From positions 1-64,000 of the forward strand of contig JAOASB010000019.1 in the NCBI GenBank assembly GCA_025210375.1: DNA of 64,000 nt, read 5' to 3'. Numbering within the stretch: the first letter of the stretch is position 1; every line of letters starts with the position of its first letter. Below are positions 3,278-39,833 of the stretch, piece by piece. The position numbers and the translations under genes were made by a program. The DNA is from Maledivibacter sp. Lineage in GTDB: Bacteria > Bacillota > Clostridia > Peptostreptococcales > Caminicellaceae. The notes under the pieces are model-generated. The model was not told where the DNA came from. It worked only from the letters and a program-made list of their open reading frames with translations, and did no database searches.

Positions 3278-3980
3278 AGCTATCCCCTTCCTTTACAAAT
3301 AAACAGTTATTATATAATCTACAGTTTTCACAGCTCGTCAATTGACTTTTTACTTCTTCACCAATTCCTATCACCGCAGTCACAGATTTTCTTGGAATCA
3401 ATATACAGCTATCAGTTACCGTAAGTCCAATATGCTTTGATGTATCTAGGAGTTTTAAAATCTTGGGCTGTATTTCAATAGGTAAATCCCCATATCCAGG
3501 ACTATATCTTGAAGTAGTATTATATCCATTATTTAATGCAATCCTTTTTATTACAACCTCAACCCTATCACATAGTGCTTCTACAGCTGTAGTTGCCGTG
3601 GCATCAAAGACTAAGCTTTTTGTCAAATCAATCTTACTATAATATTTAATTCTTCGGTCTACTTCAGTGCCCAAGGTCACTGCCATAACAACACACTTTT
3701 CACAGTTTTGTAAATGTCTATATATATCATTTCCCACCAATTTCAGATTTGAGTTCTGCAAAGAGATGTCATTGCATCCTCTCTTGATTTCATATATATT
3801 ATATACAAAATTTGTCTTGATCAAATCTAAAATTTCGTGGGTACAAGTATCTATGATACTATTGGTAACTTCATCTACATTTTTTGAACTGTATCCTAGA
3901 TATCGTAGGATTTCATTCTTATGAATCACTAAATCTATATGTTTTTTATTGATCATGCTGTAATCAAGAGGCTTCTTCAT
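3249..3980 (-). CDS. MetH activation-domain protein, stand-alone
   Basis: A 243-residue protein matching the free-standing AdoMet-binding reactivation domain of methionine synthase. This domain re-methylates oxidised cobalamin. The stretch RYSPGYGDLPIEIQPKI corresponds to the RxSPGYG motif that contacts AdoMet in MetH. The C-terminus is Cys-rich (SCENCRLYNNC), as often seen in clostridial versions, and may bind metal. It overlaps metF by 17 bases and metH by 29, so the three are very probably translationally coupled. Confidence 0.88.
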   Translation of the reverse strand: MKKPLDYSMINKKHIDLVIHKNEILRYLGYSSKNVDEVTNSIIDTCTHEILDLIKTNFVYNIYEIKRGCNDISLQNSNLKLVGNDIYRHLQNCEKCVVMAVTLGTEVDRRIKYYSKIDLTKSLVFDATATTAVEALCDRVEVVIKRIALNNGYNTTSRYSPGYGDLPIEIQPKILKLLDTSKHIGLTVTDSCILIPRKSVTAVIGIGEEVKSQLTSCENCRLYNNCLFVKEGDSCGYSKTTKQ

Positions 3981-23960: not shown

Positions 23961-25955
23961 TCATATCCTAAATTTTTCTACAAGATCATTTAAACTGCTG
24001 GCCATAGCACTGGTCTCTTCCGAGGTTGATGCTAGGTTTTGAATTATTGATGATTGTTCTTGGGTTGCAGCCGCAACCTGTTCACTACTCGATGCTGTGG
24101 TTTCTGTAATACTTGCAACTGAATCAATAAGCTCTATTATTTGATCTGAGCTTGCAACCTCATCCTTTGTTATATCTACTATTTTTCCGATATCCTTTGT
24201 AATTCGTTCCACTGCTTCTATAATTTTTACAAACGACTTATCTGTCTCATTAGCTATCCTTACCCCATTTTCTACTGTCTCCTTGCCAGAATCCTTTGCT
24301 TCTACGGCTTTATCAATTTGGATTACCATTTCATTTATGAGTGAGGATATTTCATTGGCCTCTTTATTAGTTTCTTCAGCAAGCTTACGTACTTCATCAG
24401 CTACAACTGTAAAGCCCTTACCATGTTCTCCAGCTCTTGCAGCTTCAATTGCAGCGTTTAATGCCAATAGATTAATTTGATCTGATATATTGTTAATGGT
24501 ATTAATGATTCCACTAACCTTATTTGATAACTCATTCAATACGATTAATGTATCTCCAGTTTCAATTGACATCTCTTTTATATCTTCAATGGCTTCAACT
24601 GTTCTATTTACATTGATACGCCCCTCATTTGCTGCAGCCATAGTATCATGGGAATTATCCCTCGTGGTATTGGCTCTACTTTGGGCTATTTGAATTAAGC
24701 TCGAAAGTTCAACCAAAACCGTGGAGGTTTCAACTACCAAATCTTTTTGACTTTCTGCATTAGCCGCTACTTGCTGTGTATTGCTGGCTATTTGTTCAGT
24801 GGAGGCACTTATTTCTTCAGATGAAGCAGCCATTTCCTCAGAAGCCATCGCAAGTTCCTGGGAACCCTTTCTAACATGACCTATGATATTTGATTGATGG
24901 TCAATCATTGCATTAAAGTACTCTCCTAATATTTGTATCTCATCCCCTGTCTTTATATGGGATCTAACGGTTAAATCACCATCACCTGCTTTTATCATCA
25001 ACCCTTCAAGCTCTTTGATGGGATTAATAATATTTATTTTGCTGAAAAAATATGCCAATAACATTGCAACAATAATTGATGCTACCCCAATGAATATGGT
25101 ATTTTTCCTAATTGCAATTGCTGGAGCCATATATTCATTGTAATTAGCTGTTAACGCCACCACCCAATTATTCACAGGAGTGAAACTAACAAATTTTCTT
25201 GTGCCTTCATATGTATAATAGCCCCTGCCTGGTTGTCCTGATTTCATTTTTTCAACAAGTTCTTTTAACTCTACATTATCTGTATCCCCTAGGTTTTCCT
25301 TCATTTTTTCTTGTCCATCAGGATGATATATGAAATACCCATCTTTATCAATCATATAGGCATATCCATTATCTCCTATATTTATACTTGAAATATATTT
25401 TGTAATATGTTTGAAATCAATAGTTCCAACTATTGCTCCAACTACTTTATCATTAATTGTTAATGGACAGGCAATTCCTACCACCGGGTTATTTGAAGAT
25501 TTAGATATTATTACCTTGCTTATACCCTTTGAGTTTTTTAAAGCACTTTGAATATACGCCCTATCACTTAGGTTGATATTGTAATTTATGTCATTACTAC
25601 TAAGTAGCCCTTTACCCAATGCATCCACCAGTATTACCTCTTCAATCTGACCACTATCCCCCTTCTGAACCTTTGATAAGTAATCAAAGGCCTTACTTTT
25701 TAGCTCGTTATCACCTATAGCAAATTTAGCCAAATCCTCATTATGGCTTAATAAAAGTACATACTTGCTTACTGAATCCAAAGCCTCATCTATGGACTCC
25801 GAAGATTTAACTGTAAGCGCACGTAATTCTTGCTCTGTCATATTCTGTATTGAATTTGACGTCATAATATAAGAGATAGTCCCTAGTGCAGTAATGGACA
25901 ATGAAATAAATACGAAAAACATTAATACTAATTTTGTTCTTAAACTTGCTTTCAT
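23961..25955 (-). CDS. Methyl-accepting chemotaxis protein with Cache sensor
   Basis: 664 residues. TM1 (about 10-30), a double-Cache extracellular domain (about 35-280, with [15 protein letters not shown]), TM2 (about 285-307), HAMP (about 308-360), and a cytoplasmic signalling hairpin with the highly conserved tip [37 protein letters not shown]. The ribosome site is AGAAGGAGG. Its place inside a partner-switching operon is unusual and suggests that it feeds a non-flagellar output, or that STAS and phosphatase affect taxis. Confidence 0.93.
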
Positions 25956-26000
25956 GTCTAACCTCCTTCTTTTTGTTTCATATATTATAAAACTTCATTG

Positions 26001-26381
26001 CTAACTAATATTTTTTTGTATAACCAAAGTATTCTTTCTAAAATCAATTTTATCAGCAATTGATTTCAAAATAAATAACCCTCTACCACAATTATCTAAT
26101 ATATTTTCATCGGATATCTCATCTGGTATATTTCCATTTAAAAATCCAGTTCCTGAATCCTCTATTTCAAATTCTACACTTCTTCTATCACATATAGTTC
26201 TTAAATAAATTGGCTTGTCTACACTATTATTGTTCCCATGCTTAAATGCATTTGTTAATGCCTCTGTTAGCATGAGTCTTACATCAAAAATATCATGTGA
26301 AGTATCTAACTCAGAGATAATTTCATCTATAACTTCTTTATATTTATCTATGCCATATAGTATATATTCATTTCTTTTCAT
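26001..26381 (-). CDS. RsbW/SpoIIAB-like serine kinase (copy 1)
   Basis: 126 residues of the HATPase_c_2 family. N box EALTNAFKHGNNN, G1 box EDSGTGF and G2 box CGRGLFILKSIAD are intact. It should phosphorylate the STAS partner and hold a sigma factor or other target when the partner is phosphorylated. It lies 18 bases after the phosphatase gene. It is a close paralogue of the protein at 28202-28606. Confidence 0.88.
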   Translation of the reverse strand: MKRNEYILYGIDKYKEVIDEIISELDTSHDIFDVRLMLTEALTNAFKHGNNNSVDKPIYLRTICDRRSVEFEIEDSGTGFLNGNIPDEISDENILDNCGRGLFILKSIADKIDFRKNTLVIQKNIS

Positions 26382-26398
26382 TCCAAACTATCCTTTCC

Positions 26399-27568
26399 TT
26401 ACTTTATTTCCATTGAAATCATTGTACAATCATCTTGTATCCCATAAACATCAGTCAGCATCTCATTTAAAGAAGTTTTTAAGCTCTTTGTGAATTTATT
26501 TATTGTAGGTGCTTTAAGTACGATATCGCTTATATTCTCATCGTCAAAAATAAAATCTAGTCCATCGGTGAAAAAATAAAATCTATCTCCAGAATTGAAG
26601 TGAATTATTTGTTCATCAAAAACACTATCTTCAAACATACCTAGAAACGAACCCTTAACAATTTTTTTTTCACATTTGGTTAAGCTATTTTGATAGATAA
26701 ACTGATTGATGCCTGCACCTACCACCTTTGCTTGTTTATTTTCAAAGTCAAAGCTAAAGCAACAAGCCGCTATATACCTTTCACTTAAATAATCAGATAC
26801 CTTTCTATTTAGATTATTTAGTATTTCAGAAGGATCATAACTAATCAATGCCGCTTCGTGAAATAGAACATTAAATGCAGATATATTAAGAGCAGCAGTA
26901 ATCCCCTTACCACACACGTCTCCAATGATACCAATGAGAAGGTTCTCATTTTTTTTACATAGATAAAGAAAGTCTCCACTCACTGTTCTCGCAGGAACAT
27001 AGAGAGTATCGACTTTTACTTTATTAGGAATTGTAAAGGGTTTTTTAAAAAGCTGTTTTTGCATTTTAGAAGCAGAATTCAGTTCCTTTTTTCGCTTTGT
27101 AATCTCCCTCATTATGGATAAAACCGCTGGTTTACCCTGAAAATTCAAATAACTAGAAGATACCTCCATATCAATTACTGTTTTATCCTCTAAAGTAATT
27201 TTATAATCGAATACGGTTTTTACCTGTTTATTCCTTACTATTTGATCAATTCTTTTTTTCATAATATGGTCAAAATTAGGAACAAACTTATATGCACTTT
27301 CATTAACAAGATTGTTAAAATATTTACACGCCGCTTTATTTGCTAATACAATTTTTCCATCAACAGTAATAATTATTGCATCGGGTAGCAAATTAACAAT
27401 CTCACAGTATTTTTCTTTATTTGCCTGACCAAAAAATATTACATCACTTGGATCATTCAATAGCGCTTTATATTCTACGTCACCTTCTATCAATTCATTT
27501 TCAAGCTTAACTTTTTCAGAAAACTCCTCTACATCACAATCATTTTTTTGTGCCATTGTATTTTTCAA
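26399..27568 (-). CDS. PAS-domain SpoIIE-type protein phosphatase
   Basis: 389 residues: a PAS domain (about 52-170, VNLLPDAIIITVDGKIVLANKAA) and a PP2C/SpoIIE phosphatase domain (about 185-389). The metal-binding Asp sits in VSGDFLYL, and GDVCGKGITAALN, FFTDGLDF and DDCTMISM are visible. It would dephosphorylate the STAS protein. The start is a TTG behind AGGAGTG. The gene follows a 320-base leader that ends in a terminator, so expression is probably set by attenuation. Confidence 0.9.
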   Translation of the reverse strand: MKNTMAQKNDCDVEEFSEKVKLENELIEGDVEYKALLNDPSDVIFFGQANKEKYCEIVNLLPDAIIITVDGKIVLANKAACKYFNNLVNESAYKFVPNFDHIMKKRIDQIVRNKQVKTVFDYKITLEDKTVIDMEVSSSYLNFQGKPAVLSIMREITKRKKELNSASKMQKQLFKKPFTIPNKVKVDTLYVPARTVSGDFLYLCKKNENLLIGIIGDVCGKGITAALNISAFNVLFHEAALISYDPSEILNNLNRKVSDYLSERYIAACCFSFDFENKQAKVVGAGINQFIYQNSLTKCEKKIVKGSFLGMFEDSVFDEQIIHFNSGDRFYFFTDGLDFIFDDENISDIVLKAPTINKFTKSLKTSLNEMLTDVYGIQDDCTMISMEIK

Positions 27569-27640
27569 TTTATGTCACTCCTATTTTGTATAACAAAGTA
27601 AATACCCTTATAAATTTTGTATCCATTAATATATTAAGAT

Positions 27641-27676
27641 AAAAAAAATCCTGTTATTGTACTAAGCAGGATTTTT
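27641..27676 (-). terminator. Leader terminator ahead of the SpoIIE-type gene
   Basis: Stem AAATCCTG / CAGGATTT with a T8 run on the minus strand, ending about 70 bases before the start codon. It lies downstream of a promoter-like TATAAT and a structured RNA, so it looks like an attenuator. Confidence 0.8.
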
Positions 27677-27689
27677 ACTATATTATATA

Positions 27690-27895
27690 ACTTAATAAAG
27701 CTTTAACATTTCGATTTCTTGACTAGCCTAGAAAAATCGACTGTTACAAAAACCAAAATGGAGTTTTACAAGTGGGTTATATATACATAAATAAACAGCT
27801 TGTACAACTAGCATTCCAAAACTATTGAACTAGTAGCTGTGGCTTTACATTTCCATAAAATCATCTTAAAACATACTAGCCCATTACGTATTATA
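27690..27895 (-). promoter_or_regulatory. Structured leader RNA, class uncertain, with TATAAT promoter element
   Basis: A -10 TATAAT (27895-27890) within ATTATGTTATAATA is shared with the riboswitch promoter at 28851-28846. The following RNA has a core GGAAATGTAAAGCCACAGC. A stem ACAGCT / AGCTGT encloses ACTAG / CTAGT (27795-27840), and a second stem TCGATTT / AAATCGA (27711-27740) follows. The core loosely resembles the GACGCAAAGCC part of c-di-GMP-I aptamers but lacks the tetraloop hairpin. It may be a diverged relative or another class. Confidence 0.45.
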
Positions 27896-28105
27896 ACATA
27901 ATTTTTTAGATTATATATATTAAAAGTTACTTAAAGTTAAAAAAACTTACTTAAAGTTAAAAATACAAATGACAAAAAGAAAAAAGCTTAGGAACATCAA
28001 ACTCCCTAGCTTCCAGTAAAATTTTTCTGAAAAAACAATCTTAAAATTGACAATCCCAAGGAATATAAATCCATGTTTTTTGTCACTTTAGTAACTTAAT
28101 ACCAT

Positions 28106-28206
28106 AGAGAGTTCCAAGTAAATCTTAATTTATACATAGCAAAATATCCGATGTTTCTGGGGATTTTTGATATGTATAAATTAAAGTTTTGACTAGAATC
28201 CCTATA
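28106..28206. repeat. 100-bp hairpin repeat, copy 1
   Basis: Nearly identical (about five differences) to 47029-47130. The centre is a long imperfect palindrome, TAATTTATACAT / ATGTATAAATTA. Its edge coincides with the stop codon of the RsbW-like gene. The gap 27896-28201 holds only this repeat and AT-rich DNA. Confidence 0.8.
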
Positions 28207-28606
28207 TACTAAATACAGGTTCTAATTTATTTATATTTTTTTGTATTATTAAAACATTCTTTCTTAATTCCAACTTGTCTGAAATAGCCTTTATAAGAAA
28301 TAATCCCCTTCCATAGCTATCTAATACATTCTCCTCTAATATCTCCTCTACTACAGGTTTGTTAAAGAAACCCCTCCCACAATCTTCTATTTCAAAGTTT
28401 ACACTTTTCTCATCATAAGTGGTTCTGATATAGATAGGTTTATCCACTCTATTATCATTGCCATGCTTAAATGCATTAGTTAAAGCCTCCGTCAATATAA
28501 GCCTAACATCAAAATCATCATTTGGAGTATCTAAAGTAGTGATAATATCATCAATAACTTTTTTATGATTGTCTAATCCATATAGTACATATTCTTTTTT
28601 ATTCAT
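28202..28606 (-). CDS. RsbW/SpoIIAB-like serine kinase (copy 2)
   Basis: 134 residues, a paralogue of the protein at 26001-26381 (shared EALTNAFKHGN, VDKPIY and GRGLF blocks). The ATP-binding motifs EDCGRGF and YGRGLFLIKAISDKL are intact. It is a single-gene unit behind a c-di-GMP-I riboswitch, so its level should follow c-di-GMP, unlike copy 1. It may compete with copy 1 for the STAS protein or bind another target. The ribosome site is GGGGGCGA. Confidence 0.87.
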   Translation of the reverse strand: MNKKEYVLYGLDNHKKVIDDIITTLDTPNDDFDVRLILTEALTNAFKHGNDNRVDKPIYIRTTYDEKSVNFEIEDCGRGFFNKPVVEEILEENVLDSYGRGLFLIKAISDKLELRKNVLIIQKNINKLEPVFSI

Positions 28607-28729: not shown

Positions 28730-28812
28730 AATTCAGTAACCGGCTATCATAGTCTGTTGACTTTAGACCCTTGGCTTTGCGTCCCTATATTTCTATAGGT
28801 TTGCCTTTTCAT
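28730..28812 (-). promoter_or_regulatory. c-di-GMP-I (GEMM-I) riboswitch aptamer
   Basis: The minus strand carries the GEMM-I hallmarks in order: AGGCAAACC, a stem closed by a GAAA tetraloop (CTATAGAAATATAG), GGGACGCAAAGCC, the tetraloop-receptor side AAGGGTCTAAAGTC, and ATGATAGCCGGTTAC. The single gene controlled is the second RsbW-like kinase. A strong terminator follows 34 bases on. Whether ligand turns the gene on or off was not derived. Confidence 0.9.
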
Positions 28813-28845
28813 CATATTATTAACATATTCTACTTATATATTCAT

Positions 28846-28851: not shown

Positions 28852-29000
28852 ACATAATTCCCTAAGATAATTATATTAAAAGTTTATTAATATATAAAAA
28901 AAAATAGGTTTTAATGGAAATTTATTACATTAGAGTTCCCAGCCAAAATCTTGATTTATAAATATCAAAACTCCCCTCTTAAAATCTCCTTAATCTAAAA

Positions 29001-29045
29001 AATAAGAGACAACAGATCTAAGTTGATCCATTATCTCTTATTTTT
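29001..29045 (-). terminator. Terminator of the agr operon
   Basis: Stem AATAAGAGA / TCTCTTATT with T-rich flanks on both strands, about 90 bases after agrD. Confidence 0.82.
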
Positions 29046-29132
29046 ATTTTTAGATGTTATTTTCTCTAGCATTTTTCTTGTATACTGATTGTTATCACAT
29101 ATCAAAACATTGGAAAAAGTATAAAGTTTTGA

Positions 29133-29273
29133 TTATAAATCTCTTTTTAAACTTTCCGGCATATCTGGTTCGTAAACCCAAAGCATACATCTTGTACTAG
29201 CACCACTCATAGCTACTAGTGTAAATACACAAGCTGCTGATGATAATAGAAAAGTTTTTAAATTTCTTAACAT
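29133..29273 (-). CDS. agrD: AgrD-type cyclic peptide precursor
   Basis: 46 residues: an amphipathic hydrophobic leader (MLRNLKTFLLSSAACVFTLV), a core around STRCMLWVYEP, and an acidic tail (PDMPESLKRDL). This is the layout of AgrD, where AgrB cuts the tail and a Cys forms a thiolactone with the C-terminus of the core. The single Cys in the core region is C29, giving a likely ring starting CMLWVY or CMLWVYE; the exact end is inferred. AGGGGGATAATCAAAT precedes the ATG. It lies 41 bases after agrB. Confidence 0.87.
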   Translation of the reverse strand: MLRNLKTFLLSSAACVFTLVAMSGASTRCMLWVYEPDMPESLKRDL

Positions 29274-29314
29274 ATTTGATTATCCCCCTTTTTATTAATA
29301 TTTTTCTTAAGTAA

Positions 29315-29902
29315 TTAAAAATTGGTAAATTTATACCCCAATGGACTTGCCAAGAAAAATGATAGAGTCACACCTAATAAGCTTGATGTTACATATCTAA
29401 ACAGCTCTATATTGTTTAAATAGTTACATACTAGACACCAAATCGTCAACAAACAAATAGTTTTAATCTTTATTCTTTTTCTCGTAACTTTATTTCTTAT
29501 CATTTTCTTTTCTGTACCAGCAGGAATCCACAGGATAGTAGCTATTACAGCTAATACATAAATCAATAAAATCAGGATTAAAATATTTGGAGCCTCTAAG
29601 CTTATTACTTCTCCCGCTATACCTGCCAGAATCATTAGTGAAATACTAAGGCAATAGCATTTATTGTAAGTATCCACATGACTCCCTCCAATAATTCTTC
29701 TAAAGATAACAAATGATAAGGATACAGCTACAGTGGTTTCAAAAATATTAAGAATATATGCCAAGATTAATATACTTACTGTTTTTATTGAAGTCCCTAA
29801 AAAAATTTGTAGACCATAGGAAAGAATCTCACTTTTTTCATCATCATAGTTTAATTCAAATGATATATAGTTAGAAATATTATCAGCTAACCTCTTTACC
29901 AT
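29315..29902 (-). CDS. agrB: AgrB peptide-processing membrane endopeptidase
   Basis: 195 residues, polytopic. AgrB features are present: an N-terminal cytoplasmic part, RRIIGGSHVDTYNKCYCLS with the catalytic His and Cys, and several membrane helices. It cleaves the AgrD tail and helps make the peptide ring. It overlaps the sensor gene by 20 bases and precedes agrD, so peptide maker and sensor are co-transcribed. Confidence 0.92.
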   Translation of the reverse strand: MVKRLADNISNYISFELNYDDEKSEILSYGLQIFLGTSIKTVSILILAYILNIFETTVAVSLSFVIFRRIIGGSHVDTYNKCYCLSISLMILAGIAGEVISLEAPNILILILLIYVLAVIATILWIPAGTEKKMIRNKVTRKRIKIKTICLLTIWCLVCNYLNNIELFRYVTSSLLGVTLSFFLASPLGYKFTNF

Positions 29903-30755
29903 AATTACCTACCTTTCCAGATAATATGATTGTGGATACTACAGTATCTTCATCTGTATTTTTAATATCTATCCTGCCTTCATACTTGTCCACGATTTTC
30001 TTAGAGATATATAGTCCGTATCCTCTTCCAGCAGAAGATTTAGTGGTATTCCCTTGTTTAAATAAATCCTTCATAATATTTTCTTCTATTTGTCCTGTAT
30101 TTTCAATTTTAAATATAAAATTATTATTGCAATAATCCACAATCAGTTTTATCCATTTTTTACCTTCAGTCATCAATGAAGCTTCTATAGCGTTTTCAAT
30201 TAAATTAGAAAATAAACTACATAAATCCCAAGAGTGTATATCAATATTATATATTTTTCTCTTACATTTAACGTAAAAAAATATACCTTTTTCACGTGCT
30301 ATTTCTCTTTTGACGTTAATCAATGCCGTCAAAGCAGGATGCCCAAGTCTCACTATCTCGCTAGTAAATCTATTTTCTTTTGATATACCTTTCAGATAAC
30401 TAGTCAATTCTTCATATTCCTCTAAATAAAGTAACGCTCCTATAGCTTGAATGTGAGTTAGATAGTCATATCTTTGAGAGTGTAACAGCTTTATCAATTC
30501 TTCCGTATTTCCCATATTGGTTTTCATTAATCTAAACTCTGCTTCTTTTTTTTCATAATAGCTAAATTTTTTCAGAGAAATAAACATAAAAACCGTTGTT
30601 ATAGCTGTTACAATTATAAGAATATAAAAAAAGAATATACTTTCTTTAATTACATTCAAAGTAACTGAATTGAGTATTAAAAAGTTAAGTATTATTATAA
30701 CCATCGACTGAAACAGCATGGTTAATACAATGGTATATTTGTTTTTGTTCTTCAA
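29883..30755 (-). CDS. AgrC-like GHKL sensor, short form without the phospho-His
   Basis: 290 residues with two membrane helices (about 10-30, 38-60), a Spo0B-like dimerisation helix and a GHKL ATPase domain (N box NLIENAIEAS, G2 GRGYGLYISKKIVDKYEGRI). The dimerisation motif, normally RHDxxNH, reads QRYDYLTHIQ: the acceptor His is Tyr (TAT at 30470-30468) and Asn is Thr. The AgrC six-helix sensor part is missing; the preceding gene may supply it. The start is TTG 30755, 6 bases after AGAAGGTG. Confidence 0.82.
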   Translation of the reverse strand: MKNKNKYTIVLTMLFQSMVIIILNFLILNSVTLNVIKESIFFFYILIIVTAITTVFMFISLKKFSYYEKKEAEFRLMKTNMGNTEELIKLLHSQRYDYLTHIQAIGALLYLEEYEELTSYLKGISKENRFTSEIVRLGHPALTALINVKREIAREKGIFFYVKCKRKIYNIDIHSWDLCSLFSNLIENAIEASLMTEGKKWIKLIVDYCNNNFIFKIENTGQIEENIMKDLFKQGNTTKSSAGRGYGLYISKKIVDKYEGRIDIKNTDEDTVVSTIILSGKVGNYGKEVS

Positions 30756-30767
30756 AGATATCACCTT

Positions 30768-31235
30768 CTAATCATTAATATCACATAGAAATAGGTTCTT
30801 CCTTATAATAACAATCAGTACCAATAACGACACTAAACTAATAGGGATATAAGCCAAAATTAAGTATTTAGAATTATAATATAAATCAGTCATTTCTATT
30901 TCTCTCAAAATACTATTTATTGGTAATATAATACCTTGTAGTACTCCTTGAGATAACATCCCTATCAATACTGGAATTATGGCTTTATAATATTTGATTT
31001 TCATAAATAAAATGACCATAAAATATAATGAAATAATTTGTATTATTGTATGAAATCCAAAATATATATTAGACATTCTTACAAGTAACGCAACTATTGA
31101 CTGAATCGTTGCAATAATTAAAATTTTCGACAGCCTTACATCCCTTACATTTGAAAGGTTAAACCCCAATAAAAGTATAAATAAAGCTTCTGGAAAAGAT
31201 GCAAAAACTGCGACATATAGGTAATCAATAAGCAT
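30768..31235 (-). CDS. Polytopic membrane protein, probable detached AgrC sensor domain
   Basis: 155 residues with about five hydrophobic segments and almost no soluble part. It resembles the N-terminal six-helix peptide-receptor region of AgrC (FPEALFILLLGFNLSN near the start). It directly precedes the kinase-like gene by 12 bases, and the two together have the length and order of one AgrC. The assignment rests on topology and context. AGGGGG precedes the ATG. Confidence 0.6.
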   Translation of the reverse strand: MLIDYLYVAVFASFPEALFILLLGFNLSNVRDVRLSKILIIATIQSIVALLVRMSNIYFGFHTIIQIISLYFMVILFMKIKYYKAIIPVLIGMLSQGVLQGIILPINSILREIEMTDLYYNSKYLILAYIPISLVSLLVLIVIIRKNLFLCDIND

Positions 31236-31305: not shown

Positions 31306-31326
31306 CAAAAATGTTGTCATTTTTTG
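31306..31326. promoter_or_regulatory. Palindrome upstream of the agr operon
   Basis: CAAAAATG TTGT CATTTTTTG, about 70 bases before the first agr gene. It may be an operator; no regulator is coded nearby. The rest of 31236-31464 is AT-rich with no gene seen. Confidence 0.35.
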
Positions 31327-31464
31327 TATTTTGTGTAATTTTTTTTATTTTTTTTTGCTTTTAAATGACAATATAATTTTTTTCGTTGTATTTCGTCAAT
31401 AATATAACCTCAAAACGATCGATTGAAGATTCGAGAGCATATCTGTATATAAAATATTCCAAAA

Positions 31465-34943: not shown

Positions 34944-37900
34944 CTACTCTTTACATATCGTATATTCAAGACGTTCTAAAATGGTCAAGTCGTTTTTCAG
35001 ATAATGGGATGGATTAAGCTTTAAATCATAGTTCATATTTTCACCGTGATCGGGGCATCTTGGGTAAATAAATACTTCTCCTAAATGTGCCAGGGTTAAA
35101 CTTCTCTCATTTATTTTCTGATACTCAGCCTCTAGAACCGTTAATATTTCTATAGCATTTTCTATACTAACCTTTGATAGATTGTATATTGCTTCATTAG
35201 AGGTTCCTTTGATAAATGTAGGCGAAGTATATGGCAGTATCAGATTAATTGATGGAACAAGATTTCTCTTTGGATAGACCCCTCTCCAAAGAGTATCCCC
35301 ACCTATATATGGATACATGGCGCTTTCATTAAACCAAACATTTAACTTTGGTATGAAATAAGCAAAATCAACCTCTCTATCCTGCATATCCATAAGTTCC
35401 TTACCCCGTCCTGATAGTATTCCCGTAAAAATTTTTTTAACCTCCACATTAACCTTCTTGAGTATTGGATCTAGGGCTTTTATTCTATAGCCTTTATGCA
35501 AAAGGTCATCTACTAATATTAGTGGCCTATCAAATGAACTGATCATTTTAACCTGATTTTCTAGATTCATATAATATGGATATGCACTTATATCATATTC
35601 CTTAGCATCAGGCCAAAAATATTTTTCAGTATGCATAGATTTTGTTATAGTATTGGGTATTATATATCCCTTTAGAATTTGTCCGAAGGGAACACACATG
35701 TCTTCACCTAATTTTCTAGGTATGGTCGGAATAGTAGGAACCCCATTTTCATCACATATCTTTTTTATGAGGTTTTCATAAACCATTTGCTTATCAATAG
35801 CTAATACTAAATTCCCAGGATAAAGGTCTACGATAGCTTTCTGAAGTCTTTTTCTACAGTGATTTATCACATCTGTTACCTTTAAATTGCTAACAAAGGG
35901 TTCTTTAATAAATGTTTCAACCCCCAGATATAGGGTGCATGGAGCTATCATACTCACTGCAAAAACGGGCTTCTTAGGATCACACTCCGGTACTAACTGA
36001 AATCCCTGGAGCTGTACGGCTTCATGCAGGGTATCACAGGAATATCCATCTATTACATTTCTAAAGATTCCATAGGTATAGTCCTTTGCTAAAGAAAAAG
36101 CAAGGGTTTCAGTAAGTATGATTTGTTCTAAATTAGATATATGGGAATCCTTATTTACAAATATTCCATCTATAAGAATGATTCTACCTACATAATTTTT
36201 ACGTATATATTCTGAAACAATGTTATCTTGAAATTCCTTAAAAATCATGTTTGAACGTATCCAATGAAAAATTGAAAAACCTAGTATTTTACCATTATTC
36301 TTTATATCCCTGAGAATCATTACCCTTGGCCAAAGCTTTTTGAATATATTTTTCAATATATCATAGGACTTTTCATTATATTTAGATAAAAATGTAGTCA
36401 ATTGAGTCAAAAGATTTTCCGATATACCCTCTACAACCTCTACGGAAATAGATTTAGTTTGAATAAGAGTCTTGTATTGAGGTTCTCTTCTATATAAGCT
36501 GTTCTCATAAATATATTTTTGTACTAGTGGATCGACCAAACTGGATATATCCCTATTTTGATCTATGTAATTTCTAATCTGAGTAGAACTTATGTCTTCA
36601 TATTGAAAGGATAAGGATAATCTTATTACATTACCTTTTATTTCATTAATTATTTTATCAAGATCGGAATCACTACTTTCTGAAACATAAAGGTTTTTTC
36701 TATCAAATACTATATGGGAAAAGGATAATATGGATTCCTCCGCATACTTCTTATATGCCGATGCGTTTAATACTACATCACTTCCTGCAACAATGTGAAT
36801 ATCTGTCATTGGAAAGGCAGTACGTAATTTTTCCAAATCTTTGTCATTTGCAATGTTTATCTGAAAATCACTAGGGAATAAATGTATACCTAGTTCATCG
36901 GCAATAGACATCCTAATAATATTTCTTCGTATTAAATTAGGCTGTGTTCTCTTAGACCATGAGAATTCATCAATAGCTAAATAAACTTCAAAGCCCAAAT
37001 TTCTTATTTCTCTGGCGATTTCCTTATGACTCAAAGAAAATGGATCAAAGCTTCCAGGGAAAAAAGCAATTTTTCTTTGATCGTCAAGTTTAATAGGCCC
37101 ATTATAAAATTTGTAGTCTGAAATAAATCTATAAATATGATTTAATCCTGCGGAATTAGTTAAAAAGTATAATTCCCTTGTTTCTTTTCGGTTTCCTAGT
37201 AAAGTAAGAATCTTTTTTGCAACAAGCTTGAATATATTGTATTTTCCCTCTAAACTTAATTGCTTGGACCCAAATATGTCTATACCAATAACGCTAAATG
37301 CCACTTGCCTTACTTGCATGTTGTTGTTTACGAGTCCATTCAATAATATTCCTAGCATCTTTATATATCTATCATTGTATGATTTCTCCGTTTCATCAAA
37401 GAAATCCTTATATTTAGGATAATTGGTTATACATATACTGATGGTCTTTAATAAAAGGCATATTACATTGGGACTTGACTGTCTTATCTTCTCTATAAAG
37501 TCACATATTAATTCATCTAGTTCAACGGGCTGTAAATAAAGCATAAGTCTTCCAAGATAGTTAGTTATATATTTTGTAAATTGATAACCTTCTATTTCTA
37601 GGGCCCTTAAAAGCTCTACTACAATATCATTTCTTTGATCAAATGGTAAATTAGGTACTATTTTAATCAAAGCTTCTCCGCCTTTATTTCTTACATTTTC
37701 ACTGGCACTAACCTTTAGAAGGTTACAAAAATGCATAGCAGTATGTATACCCATATTATCTAGATTATTTAAGGTGTGTTCCATTATAAGCTCTACTTGA
37801 TATTTCTTTGTGACCCAATCAGTTGCTGTCTTGAGATTACTCAAGAACATGCTTGGCATTTTTTCTTCATCCCTATTACAAAACTCCTCATACTGTAAAA

Positions 37901-39833
37901 CTACTGAATGATCTAGTTCAAGGAGCTTAGCAATCTTTAACTTTAAAAAGTTTTCTACAGCAAACCCAGAATATTTTATATCAAGACCAAAGTCCTTCTT
38001 AATAAAATTTAAAGTTCTAGAATTCCTATCTAGCTTAGGTATTAAATTATATATAGTTTCGAGGGCCGATAATCTCAGATCATTATTTTCCCCATAAACG
38101 TTATCCCTTATATAATCCAGCAAATTTTCAATTTCATATTCTTCGCATTCATTTACAGGAATGTACTTTGCGGTATTTAATATATTTAACTTTAATTGAT
38201 GACTTTGCTTCATATCCTTTTTATAATACTTTAATAGGACTTTTATGAAATCCTTAATTTGGTGCTTAGGACAATTGGAAAATAATGATGCCACCATTAA
38301 TTTCATGCTTTTTCCGATCCATCTTTGATGTGTAGGAATAATCTGTCTACTTGGAAATAGAAATAAATTTAGATAATCGTCAAACAACTCATAGGCAGCA
38401 TATCCCGGAGGCTCTAACACCACATTTTCTGGCACTTCTTTTCTATACACCTCATCAAAGGTAGCAATCAAGGCTCCAATAATGTTGGCACACTGGATTC
38501 TAATATCATCCTCGGGATGAACTAGTTGCTCATATAAAAATCTTACGGTTATCAGTTTCTGTTTCTGAGTAAGATATGTTGAATATTCCTGAAAACCATT
38601 TAAATAGCTTCTTAAATTATTGGTATCTTCTTCACTTCGCGCCTTTTCTATTATGGAGTTTAATGAAAATTCATCTCTTAGCTTATACATAAGATTTATA
38701 TTATGGGTTATAGAAAGATATTTAAGATTTTTTATTATATCCTTTCCTCGCATCAGTGAATAGTATTTTTTCCTTATTTGTGATTTTTGAAGGTTTGTTT
38801 TCTCAGGCTTAACATCTACATTTATTCCTAGATCAAGTATATAATCTTCAAAGTCTTTAAGCTTAGCATATACCCTTGAGTACCTTTTTTCCTTTGCTTT
38901 ATCAAGGTTATCTAGTTTATTTAGAACCACATCAAAGGATTCCTGTAGACTATATATATGCATACGATTTTCTTTTTTCTTTACTCTAAAATCTGAATAT
39001 ATCAATACAAGACTCTCAAGGGATAAATTTTCCAATTCCAGATCCCAAGTTGAATGATTGATTGCAATATTTCTAATATATGTTATATTATGCTTCTTAA
39101 ACCATACATCAGTATAATAATAGTGATAATATGGAACTCTTTTTAACTCTGCTCCCTTACATCCAAACTTACCTATATCATGTCCAGCAGCAGAACCCGA
39201 AACCCTTCCCAAATCTATTGACACTCCTGCAGCCTTTAATTGTCGTCCTATAAAAAGGGCTAAATAATGTACCCCAGAAATATGCTGTAGAGAACTATAG
39301 CCCATAACCTCTTGGTTTAGCTTCATCATCTCATATACATATTCATCCTCAAAGGCCCTTTTGAAATTTTTGTACTCTTCAATATTTTCAAGCTCATTCT
39401 CTTCTTCCTTAGCTAAAAAATTAAGGGGATAGTTACTCTCCCAGCTATTATCACCGGATATTTTTTGGCTCTCCAATACGACCTTTAAAACTTCTAAATA
39501 TAATATGCAGGCATTGTTTAAATTTCCATAAAGTCTTATGGTAACTGCATCTGGGAAGGATCTGCTAAGGGCATATTGATAAACATAGAAAAGCCAGTCC
39601 TCAGGTAGCTTACCCTTCATCAAATACTCTATTAATTCTTTACATAAAACTAGTACTGCTTTACATGAATAATCATTATGTATAACTATTTTATTTACTT
39701 GATATTTAAAATGATCTGATTTTATATGCTTCTCTACAATACCTGAAGATAACGATATCTGCTTTAATACCCCTTTGTCTAAAAGACTATCACAAATTTT
39801 TCTATACAATTCATTTGCAAAAGAACCAGTCAT
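34944..39833 (-). CDS. Giant multidomain protein: HD, repeats, NMNAT-like nucleotidyltransferase, GNAT-like, PRTase-like
   Basis: 1629 residues, no signal peptide. Parts in order: an HD domain (about 180-290, with H184, H189 and the H218-D219 pair in AAGHDIGKFG); a long alpha-helical, HEAT-like region (about 400-900); a nucleotidyltransferase of the NadD type (about 920-1115, GSFDPFSLSH and closing ISSTQIR); a GNAT-like domain (about 1150-1300); and a phosphoribosyltransferase-like domain (about 1330-1520) with LILVDDLLHKGYR in place of the PRPP loop. NadD and HD are often paired in NAD synthesis (NadD-YqeK), but this fusion is not a known enzyme to me. The ribosome site is AGGAGGA. Confidence 0.75.
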   Translation of the reverse strand: MTGSFANELYRKICDSLLDKGVLKQISLSSGIVEKHIKSDHFKYQVNKIVIHNDYSCKAVLVLCKELIEYLMKGKLPEDWLFYVYQYALSRSFPDAVTIRLYGNLNNACILYLEVLKVVLESQKISGDNSWESNYPLNFLAKEEENELENIEEYKNFKRAFEDEYVYEMMKLNQEVMGYSSLQHISGVHYLALFIGRQLKAAGVSIDLGRVSGSAAGHDIGKFGCKGAELKRVPYYHYYYTDVWFKKHNITYIRNIAINHSTWDLELENLSLESLVLIYSDFRVKKKENRMHIYSLQESFDVVLNKLDNLDKAKEKRYSRVYAKLKDFEDYILDLGINVDVKPEKTNLQKSQIRKKYYSLMRGKDIIKNLKYLSITHNINLMYKLRDEFSLNSIIEKARSEEDTNNLRSYLNGFQEYSTYLTQKQKLITVRFLYEQLVHPEDDIRIQCANIIGALIATFDEVYRKEVPENVVLEPPGYAAYELFDDYLNLFLFPSRQIIPTHQRWIGKSMKLMVASLFSNCPKHQIKDFIKVLLKYYKKDMKQSHQLKLNILNTAKYIPVNECEEYEIENLLDYIRDNVYGENNDLRLSALETIYNLIPKLDRNSRTLNFIKKDFGLDIKYSGFAVENFLKLKIAKLLELDHSVVLQYEEFCNRDEEKMPSMFLSNLKTATDWVTKKYQVELIMEHTLNNLDNMGIHTAMHFCNLLKVSASENVRNKGGEALIKIVPNLPFDQRNDIVVELLRALEIEGYQFTKYITNYLGRLMLYLQPVELDELICDFIEKIRQSSPNVICLLLKTISICITNYPKYKDFFDETEKSYNDRYIKMLGILLNGLVNNNMQVRQVAFSVIGIDIFGSKQLSLEGKYNIFKLVAKKILTLLGNRKETRELYFLTNSAGLNHIYRFISDYKFYNGPIKLDDQRKIAFFPGSFDPFSLSHKEIAREIRNLGFEVYLAIDEFSWSKRTQPNLIRRNIIRMSIADELGIHLFPSDFQINIANDKDLEKLRTAFPMTDIHIVAGSDVVLNASAYKKYAEESILSFSHIVFDRKNLYVSESSDSDLDKIINEIKGNVIRLSLSFQYEDISSTQIRNYIDQNRDISSLVDPLVQKYIYENSLYRREPQYKTLIQTKSISVEVVEGISENLLTQLTTFLSKYNEKSYDILKNIFKKLWPRVMILRDIKNNGKILGFSIFHWIRSNMIFKEFQDNIVSEYIRKNYVGRIILIDGIFVNKDSHISNLEQIILTETLAFSLAKDYTYGIFRNVIDGYSCDTLHEAVQLQGFQLVPECDPKKPVFAVSMIAPCTLYLGVETFIKEPFVSNLKVTDVINHCRKRLQKAIVDLYPGNLVLAIDKQMVYENLIKKICDENGVPTIPTIPRKLGEDMCVPFGQILKGYIIPNTITKSMHTEKYFWPDAKEYDISAYPYYMNLENQVKMISSFDRPLILVDDLLHKGYRIKALDPILKKVNVEVKKIFTGILSGRGKELMDMQDREVDFAYFIPKLNVWFNESAMYPYIGGDTLWRGVYPKRNLVPSINLILPYTSPTFIKGTSNEAIYNLSKVSIENAIEILTVLEAEYQKINERSLTLAHLGEVFIYPRCPDHGENMNYDLKLNPSHYLKNDLTILERLEYTICKE

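Follow-up and report, generated by a model that had tools for sequence, protein, structure and literature searches.

An agr-type operon of Maledivibacter with an agrA fossil and a sensor predicted to be a pseudokinase

The agr systems of Firmicutes are built from AgrB, AgrD, AgrC and AgrA, and the operon described here resembles them in the His/Cys pair of AgrB, the Cys and E-P-x-x-P tail of AgrD, a polytopic receptor with a GHKL domain, and the operon order. It differs in that its receptor is encoded by two genes, as is typical of its subfamily, in that the acceptor His of the sensor is absent, and in that agrA is reduced to a 24-codon fossil. Systems lacking agrA have been described in C. 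difficile. According to the accessible part of the report on phage phiCDHM1 (PMC3901668), its agr3 locus carries agrC, agrB and agrD without agrA, and the authors propose a relay to the AgrA of the host; unlike the present operon agr3 is phage-borne, and that part of the source mentions no loss of the His. The agrB1D1 (agr1) locus of C. difficile (PMC10602386) likewise has agr peptide genes without a cognate agrA, and its mode of reception is unknown, but it contains no agrC.

Histidine-kinase pseudokinase sensors are already known, an example being DivL of Caulobacter and other Alphaproteobacteria (PMC4211667), which has the fold of a histidine kinase, carries Tyr at the acceptor position and works by binding without kinase activity. 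DivL, however, contains PAS domains, senses phosphorylated DivK, signals to CckA and is no peptide receptor, and its acceptor-position Tyr is conserved, whereas Tyr, Leu and Ser occupy this position in the three sensors considered below. The ChrS of evolved C. glutamicum (PMC9491836) is an inactive sensor kinase that alters signalling through heterodimers with a paralogue, but it is of laboratory origin and was inactivated by a frameshift in the ATP domain instead of loss of the acceptor. A limited literature search returned no earlier report of an agr-type peptide receptor without the acceptor His.

The window, a stretch of 64,000 nucleotides, lies on contig C19 of a Maledivibacter genome of 4.56 Mb in 55 contigs (G000; codes beginning with L denote contig pieces of the compared genomes). 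The operon lies entirely on the minus strand, in the order TM protein, GHKL sensor, AgrB and AgrD from 5' to 3', and it and its flanks contain the following features.

31306 to 31328, minus strand: upstream element TACAAAAAATGACAACATTTTTG, 23 bp (alignment of four family members)
30768 to 31235, minus strand: 155-aa membrane protein with 5 TM helices and an SFPEA motif, forming the N-terminal half of the split AgrC-type receptor (open reading frame; orthologues at the same place in relatives' loci)
29883 to 30764, minus strand: 293-aa AgrC-type sensor starting with GTG, a predicted pseudokinase with 2 TM helices, Spo0B-type DHp and GHKL ATP-binding domain (SPOB_a and HATPase_c_5 matches)
30468 to 30470, minus strand: codon TAT for Tyr99, replacing the phospho-acceptor His, in RYDYLTH (sequence; alignment with relatives)
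29315 to 29902, minus strand: AgrB peptidase/exporter, 195 aa (PF04647; alignment)
29133 to 29273, minus strand: AgrD pro-peptide, 46 aa (TIGR04223; alignment)
29040 to 29111, minus strand: fossil of agrA, NVLICDNNQYTRKMLEKITSKNKN, in which 24 codons from the N-terminus of the receiver remain (tblastn with relatives' regulators; DNA alignment with G003 and G002)
28998 to 29045, minus strand: 21-bp hairpin with A-tract and U-tract flanks, extending into the end of the fossil and probably the terminator of the operon (RNA fold score)

Orthologues with 50-71% identity and conserved gene order were found in a search of relatives, and the full ancestral system consists of the 5-TM protein, a 2-TM kinase, AgrB, AgrD and a REC-LytTR regulator. 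All five genes are intact in G011, G022, G033, G068 (Anaerovirgula multivorans, a relative in the same order), G089, G079, G241 and others. The pairing of a TM protein with a short kinase is thus the ancestral and ordinary layout of this agr subfamily, and we ruled out the split sensor as an anomaly, as it had been presented in the original prediction. In three relatives (G022, G011 and G033; L123, L124 and L125) the 5-TM receptor gene is tandemly duplicated upstream of the kinase gene. Comparison with phages and plasmids gave no close match, and we rejected such an origin for the locus. Within the locus in G000 there is no response regulator gene, as the original prediction had stated, but agrA is not simply missing, being represented by the 24-codon pseudogene. 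Given that two of the four defining features of agr, the phospho-acceptor His and an AgrA with receiver and LytTR domains, are absent, the locus ought not to be classed as a full agr two-component system.

The peptide-producing half is complete, as had been predicted. AgrB matched PF04647 (2.3e-34, over the cut-off), and the His and Cys of its GGSHVDTYNKC segment align with the H and C that are invariant among relatives; AgrD matched TIGR04223 of NCBIfam (2.6e-11) and in the alignment has a Cys followed by a Y-E-P-D-x-P tail, with a predicted CMLWV thiolactone ring by analogy. The ring residue is Cys in G000, G003, G002 and G089, whereas G004 and the remaining intact relatives have Ser, so that the subfamily appears, as far as the pro-peptides indicate, to mix thiolactone- and lactone-type peptides. 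The hairpin after the operon (-24.4 kcal/mol, z -7.35, with 0/200 shuffles as stable) was not called by a simple terminator scan, and is probably the operon terminator. Upstream, element TACAAAAAATGACAACATTTTTG is conserved in the four family members and has a single match in the 4.56-Mb genome at up to 3 mismatches, and a simple repeat scan of this region for AgrA-type direct repeats gave nothing convincing.

The sensor matched SPOB_a (4e-10; PF14689, 39.5 bits, cut-off 28.1) and then HATPase_c_5 (9e-17; PF14501, 61.4 bits, cut-off 22) in Pfam, the domain order of Spo0B-type GHKL histidine kinases. Its residue 99 is Tyr where the phospho-acceptor His is expected, and the sequence confirmed both the RYDYLTH motif and its TAT codon (30470-30468), as first described. 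No PAS domain was matched in the domain search, placing the sensor outside the DivL family proper. The AlphaFold2 model of the TM protein (mean pLDDT 93) consists of five long helices, to which the sensor adds two for a total of seven; a PDB fold search with the TM protein returned no match. The sensor model was weaker (pLDDT 72), and its fold matched AgrC (6e52, among the top matches) and the catalytic domain of ThkA with ADP (3a0t). In the model, its ATP domain matches solved kinase domains carrying ADP. In the alignment the N-box, ENTG-type and GRGYGL motifs are unbroken in the His-less sensors, which have thereby kept the motifs of the ATP site. The sensor accordingly has the features of a histidine-kinase pseudokinase: a replaced acceptor His, with the fold and the nucleotide-site motifs retained.

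Position 99 is His in 26/29 aligned sensors, the exceptions being Tyr in G000, Leu in G003 and Ser in G002, encoded by TAT, CTA and AGC, respectively; in all four His-bearing sensors whose codons were read the codon is CAT. The three exceptions come from three different genera of one family, our sample of which comprised the four genomes with the locus (G000, G002, G003 and G004). In a tree of the TM protein, AgrC and AgrB they grouped together (100 and 95 UFboot); the AgrB tree alone did not resolve this grouping. The prospect that RYD marks a recurring clade was borne out in part: loss of the His recurs in three genera, but the replacing residue varies and RYD itself is not conserved. All three share a Thr at +4. 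The original prediction had set the sensor against the motif RHD...N, but the missing Asn is no part of the anomaly, given that in most intact relatives this position is also not Asn but Ser, Gly, Ala or similar. One ancient loss of the His and three later losses both fit the data, and either may have occurred.

For a base rate we surveyed 60 further agrB neighbourhoods in the order, in which 41 sensors were found. The HD motif is present in every confidently aligned GHKL sensor among them (of the others, L226 has YHD although misaligned, L234 belongs to another kinase type, L253 and L281 yielded no column, and L228 and L256 are weak matches). This ruled out His loss as ordinary variation of agr sensors, which had been named as a finding that could overturn the prediction. 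Sensors of the KHDFHNH type, on the other hand, were commonly without a nearby regulator in the survey, so the absence of agrA alone is not remarkable, and we rejected it as a rarity. The two losses are not strictly linked, since G004 has lost agrA and retains the His (RHE). The His was lost in 3/4 loci without agrA against 0/15 with it (Fisher P = 0.004), a figure that is only indicative because the genomes are related.

The agrA fossil, at 29111-29040 just outside the interval 29133-31235, adjoins the 3' end of agrD. In tblastn it has 67-77% identity to the start of those intact regulators that match it best (E 2.7e-5 in a multi-locus search, 4e-9 with the downstream region alone); NVLICDNNQYTRKMLEKITSKNKN has no start codon, and the remainder of agrA is deleted. 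Remnants lie 3' of agrD in all four family members. In G003 the receiver is interrupted by in-frame stops and a frameshift and has a gap of 43 residues that covers the phospho-Asp region, and directly after it the LytTR part forms a 124-aa open frame (L119:9458-9832; 49% identity over 112 ungapped residues) preceded by a strong Shine-Dalgarno sequence, AAAGGAGG. G004 has a weak fragment (tblastn E 3e-5). In G002 tblastn gave no agrA match, and the DNA aligns with the agrA start remnant of G000 and G003 as a weaker remnant. Because the remnants are too similar to intact genes for neutrality since the split of the genera, agrA was probably inactivated after that split, perhaps in several losses, judging from the sequences. 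Between the fossil (29046-29111, minus strand) and its G003 counterpart (L119:9249-9314), 19/22 third codon positions agree, against 0.61 in agrC, in what is a small sample; some other constraint may act on the fossil DNA.

An orphan LytTR regulator, which the original prediction had suggested looking for, was searched for, and none of AgrA type was found among the LytTR proteins of the four genomes. These score 65-136 bits against the AgrA family, whose members generally match one another at at least 159 bits (one G022 pair was listed at 17.7 bits). We therefore rejected a move of agrA elsewhere for the G000, G003 and G004 assemblies; the G002 assembly is only 85% complete, and the absence there is weaker. 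On contig C7 of G000 (L126, about 3525-3830) there is a broken LytTR response-regulator gene with its receiver start and LytTR part in different frames, and a second AgrA-like regulator may thus have been lost from this genome.

With the His lost and only a fossil of agrA left, a pseudokinase receptor is the most likely role of the sensor, a reading that had been offered at the outset and that the comparison supports, the His being lost in a three-genus clade with the other invariant residues kept. We hold with about even confidence, from sequence comparison, that this is an inherited agr operon whose phosphotransfer arm has been dismantled, and which would have kept peptide production and an ATP-binding pseudokinase receptor that signals by conformation or binding. 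The main rival is passive decay of the receptor half after agrA was lost, with AgrB and AgrD alone mattering, the His change being drift, and the peptide sensed by another receptor or used otherwise. We consider this unlikely, although several points favour it: every locus-bearing family member has an agrA fossil, the remnants look recent, three different residues at position 99 fit drift, agrB1D1 of C. difficile functions although no cognate receptor is known for it (PMC10602386), and S. aureus lineages with agr frameshifts are short-lived (PMC8768832). Decay should, however, strike other sites too, and each His-less sensor keeps 19 of the 20 columns that are invariant in 15 relatives, His99 being the sole loss. 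Moreover, the TM protein, AgrC, AgrB and AgrD genes are free of stops and frameshifts in the four genomes, whereas agrA has several lesions, and between G000 and G003 AgrC is as conserved as AgrB (71% vs 65% identity). Pairwise omega for these two genomes was 0.033 for AgrC, within which the DHp and ATP parts gave 0.044 and 0.015, respectively. It was 0.23 for AgrB and 0.19 for the TM protein. These values are rough, dS being large; for the TM protein omega was 0.064 in the family. Since the agrA remnants look younger than the genera, we rejected the use of pairwise omega to prove selection following the loss; the low values may mostly measure the time before it. The contrast in lesions together with the loss of only one invariant residue is the stronger argument. 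Because agrC overlaps agrB (the sensor ends at 29883 and AgrB starts at 29902), the open sensor frame may also have been kept by translational coupling.

It is a good deal less probable that the His-less sensor acts as a dominant modulator or insulator by forming heterodimers with a KHDFHNH sensor that supplies catalysis and the phospho-acceptor. G000 and G002 each have a second agr-type locus with such a sensor, one is present in G003 (L283), and the ChrS pseudokinase of C. glutamicum does pair with a paralogous kinase (PMC9491836), but the two G000 sensors are only about 29% identical and the second locus is also without a nearby LytTR regulator. We think it very improbable that another His has taken over as acceptor in a sensor that is still a kinase, with its regulator encoded elsewhere. 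There are nearby candidates (H95 in G000 and G003, H97 in G002, and H104 in all 19 aligned sensors), and the accessible part of one report (PMC10891604) states that Listeria AgrC can phosphorylate a non-cognate regulator. None of these His residues is followed by Asp or Glu, however, so the HD/HE motif has not been re-created; H104 coexists with His99 in all relatives that have the latter and hence is not compensatory, and besides H104 no single alternative is common to the three His-less sensors. To an assembly or base-calling artefact at 30468-30470 we give next to no credence: a single C to T change does turn His into Tyr, but at this place the codons of G003 and G002 also encode residues other than His, and the agrA of each is degraded. 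On this ground we rejected a sequencing error at 30470, which had been named as a possible refutation, and the variant is a real, clade-wide form of agr.

On the pseudokinase reading, with the partner gene a fossil and the His replaced, any signalling must bypass the usual phosphate relay. If the operon is expressed, AgrB would still cut, cyclise and export the AgrD peptide, and the 5-TM protein and the 2-TM sensor would still form a membrane receptor, in which the sensor would retain its GHKL ATP site and carry no phosphate at the canonical position. Binding of the peptide would shift an ATP-dependent conformation of the sensor, which would in turn act on another protein by binding. DivL sets a precedent for action through binding by a Tyr-bearing kinase fold, and ChrS for a pseudokinase that works in heterodimers. 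A candidate for that protein in G000 is the His-bearing sensor of the second agr locus, reached by heterodimerisation, and in G003 the receiverless LytTR protein still encoded at the locus is the natural candidate. We regard as doubtful the idea of a natural quorum-sensing pathway free of phosphate, with a receptor built on a pseudokinase core and paired in G003 with a receiverless LytTR protein, such that a two-component pathway would have become a binding-only one. The family offers a graded series (intact; agrA lost with the His kept; the His lost with a receiverless regulator kept; the His lost with agrA a fossil), which opens to test both the way in which a two-component pathway comes apart and the action of agr peptides where agrA is missing, as in C. 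difficile agr1.

Several other loci were noted in passing. The second agr-type locus of G000, on contig C15 (L127:7477-9828), encodes AgrB, AgrD, a TM protein and an intact KHDFHNH sensor, with no LytTR regulator nearby. G046 (L122:8003-8945) shows the opposite decay, agrB being down to 84 codons, agrD gone and the remnant fused straight onto an intact REC-LytTR regulator, with a His-bearing sensor retained; this locus is possibly a listener without a speaker. Beyond the operon in the window, a minus-strand cluster (23961-28606) encodes a chemotaxis receptor, a PAS-SpoIIE phosphatase and, at 28202-28606 and 26001-26381, two RsbW-like kinases, and a c-di-GMP-I riboswitch (28732-28815, minus strand; Rfam RF01051, 80.8 bits) lies upstream of its RsbW-like HATPase_c_2 gene at 28202-28606. 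The corresponding place after agrD is occupied in G002 by an RsbW-like gene together with one for a chemotaxis receptor (L121:2202-4774). Finally, 34944-39833 (minus strand) encodes a 1629-aa multi-domain protein in which an apparent HD-type phosphohydrolase region and a nucleotidyltransferase-like motif (GSFDPFSLSH) were recognised by eye, and which is also found, in partial form, near agr in G003 (L119:97-3477).
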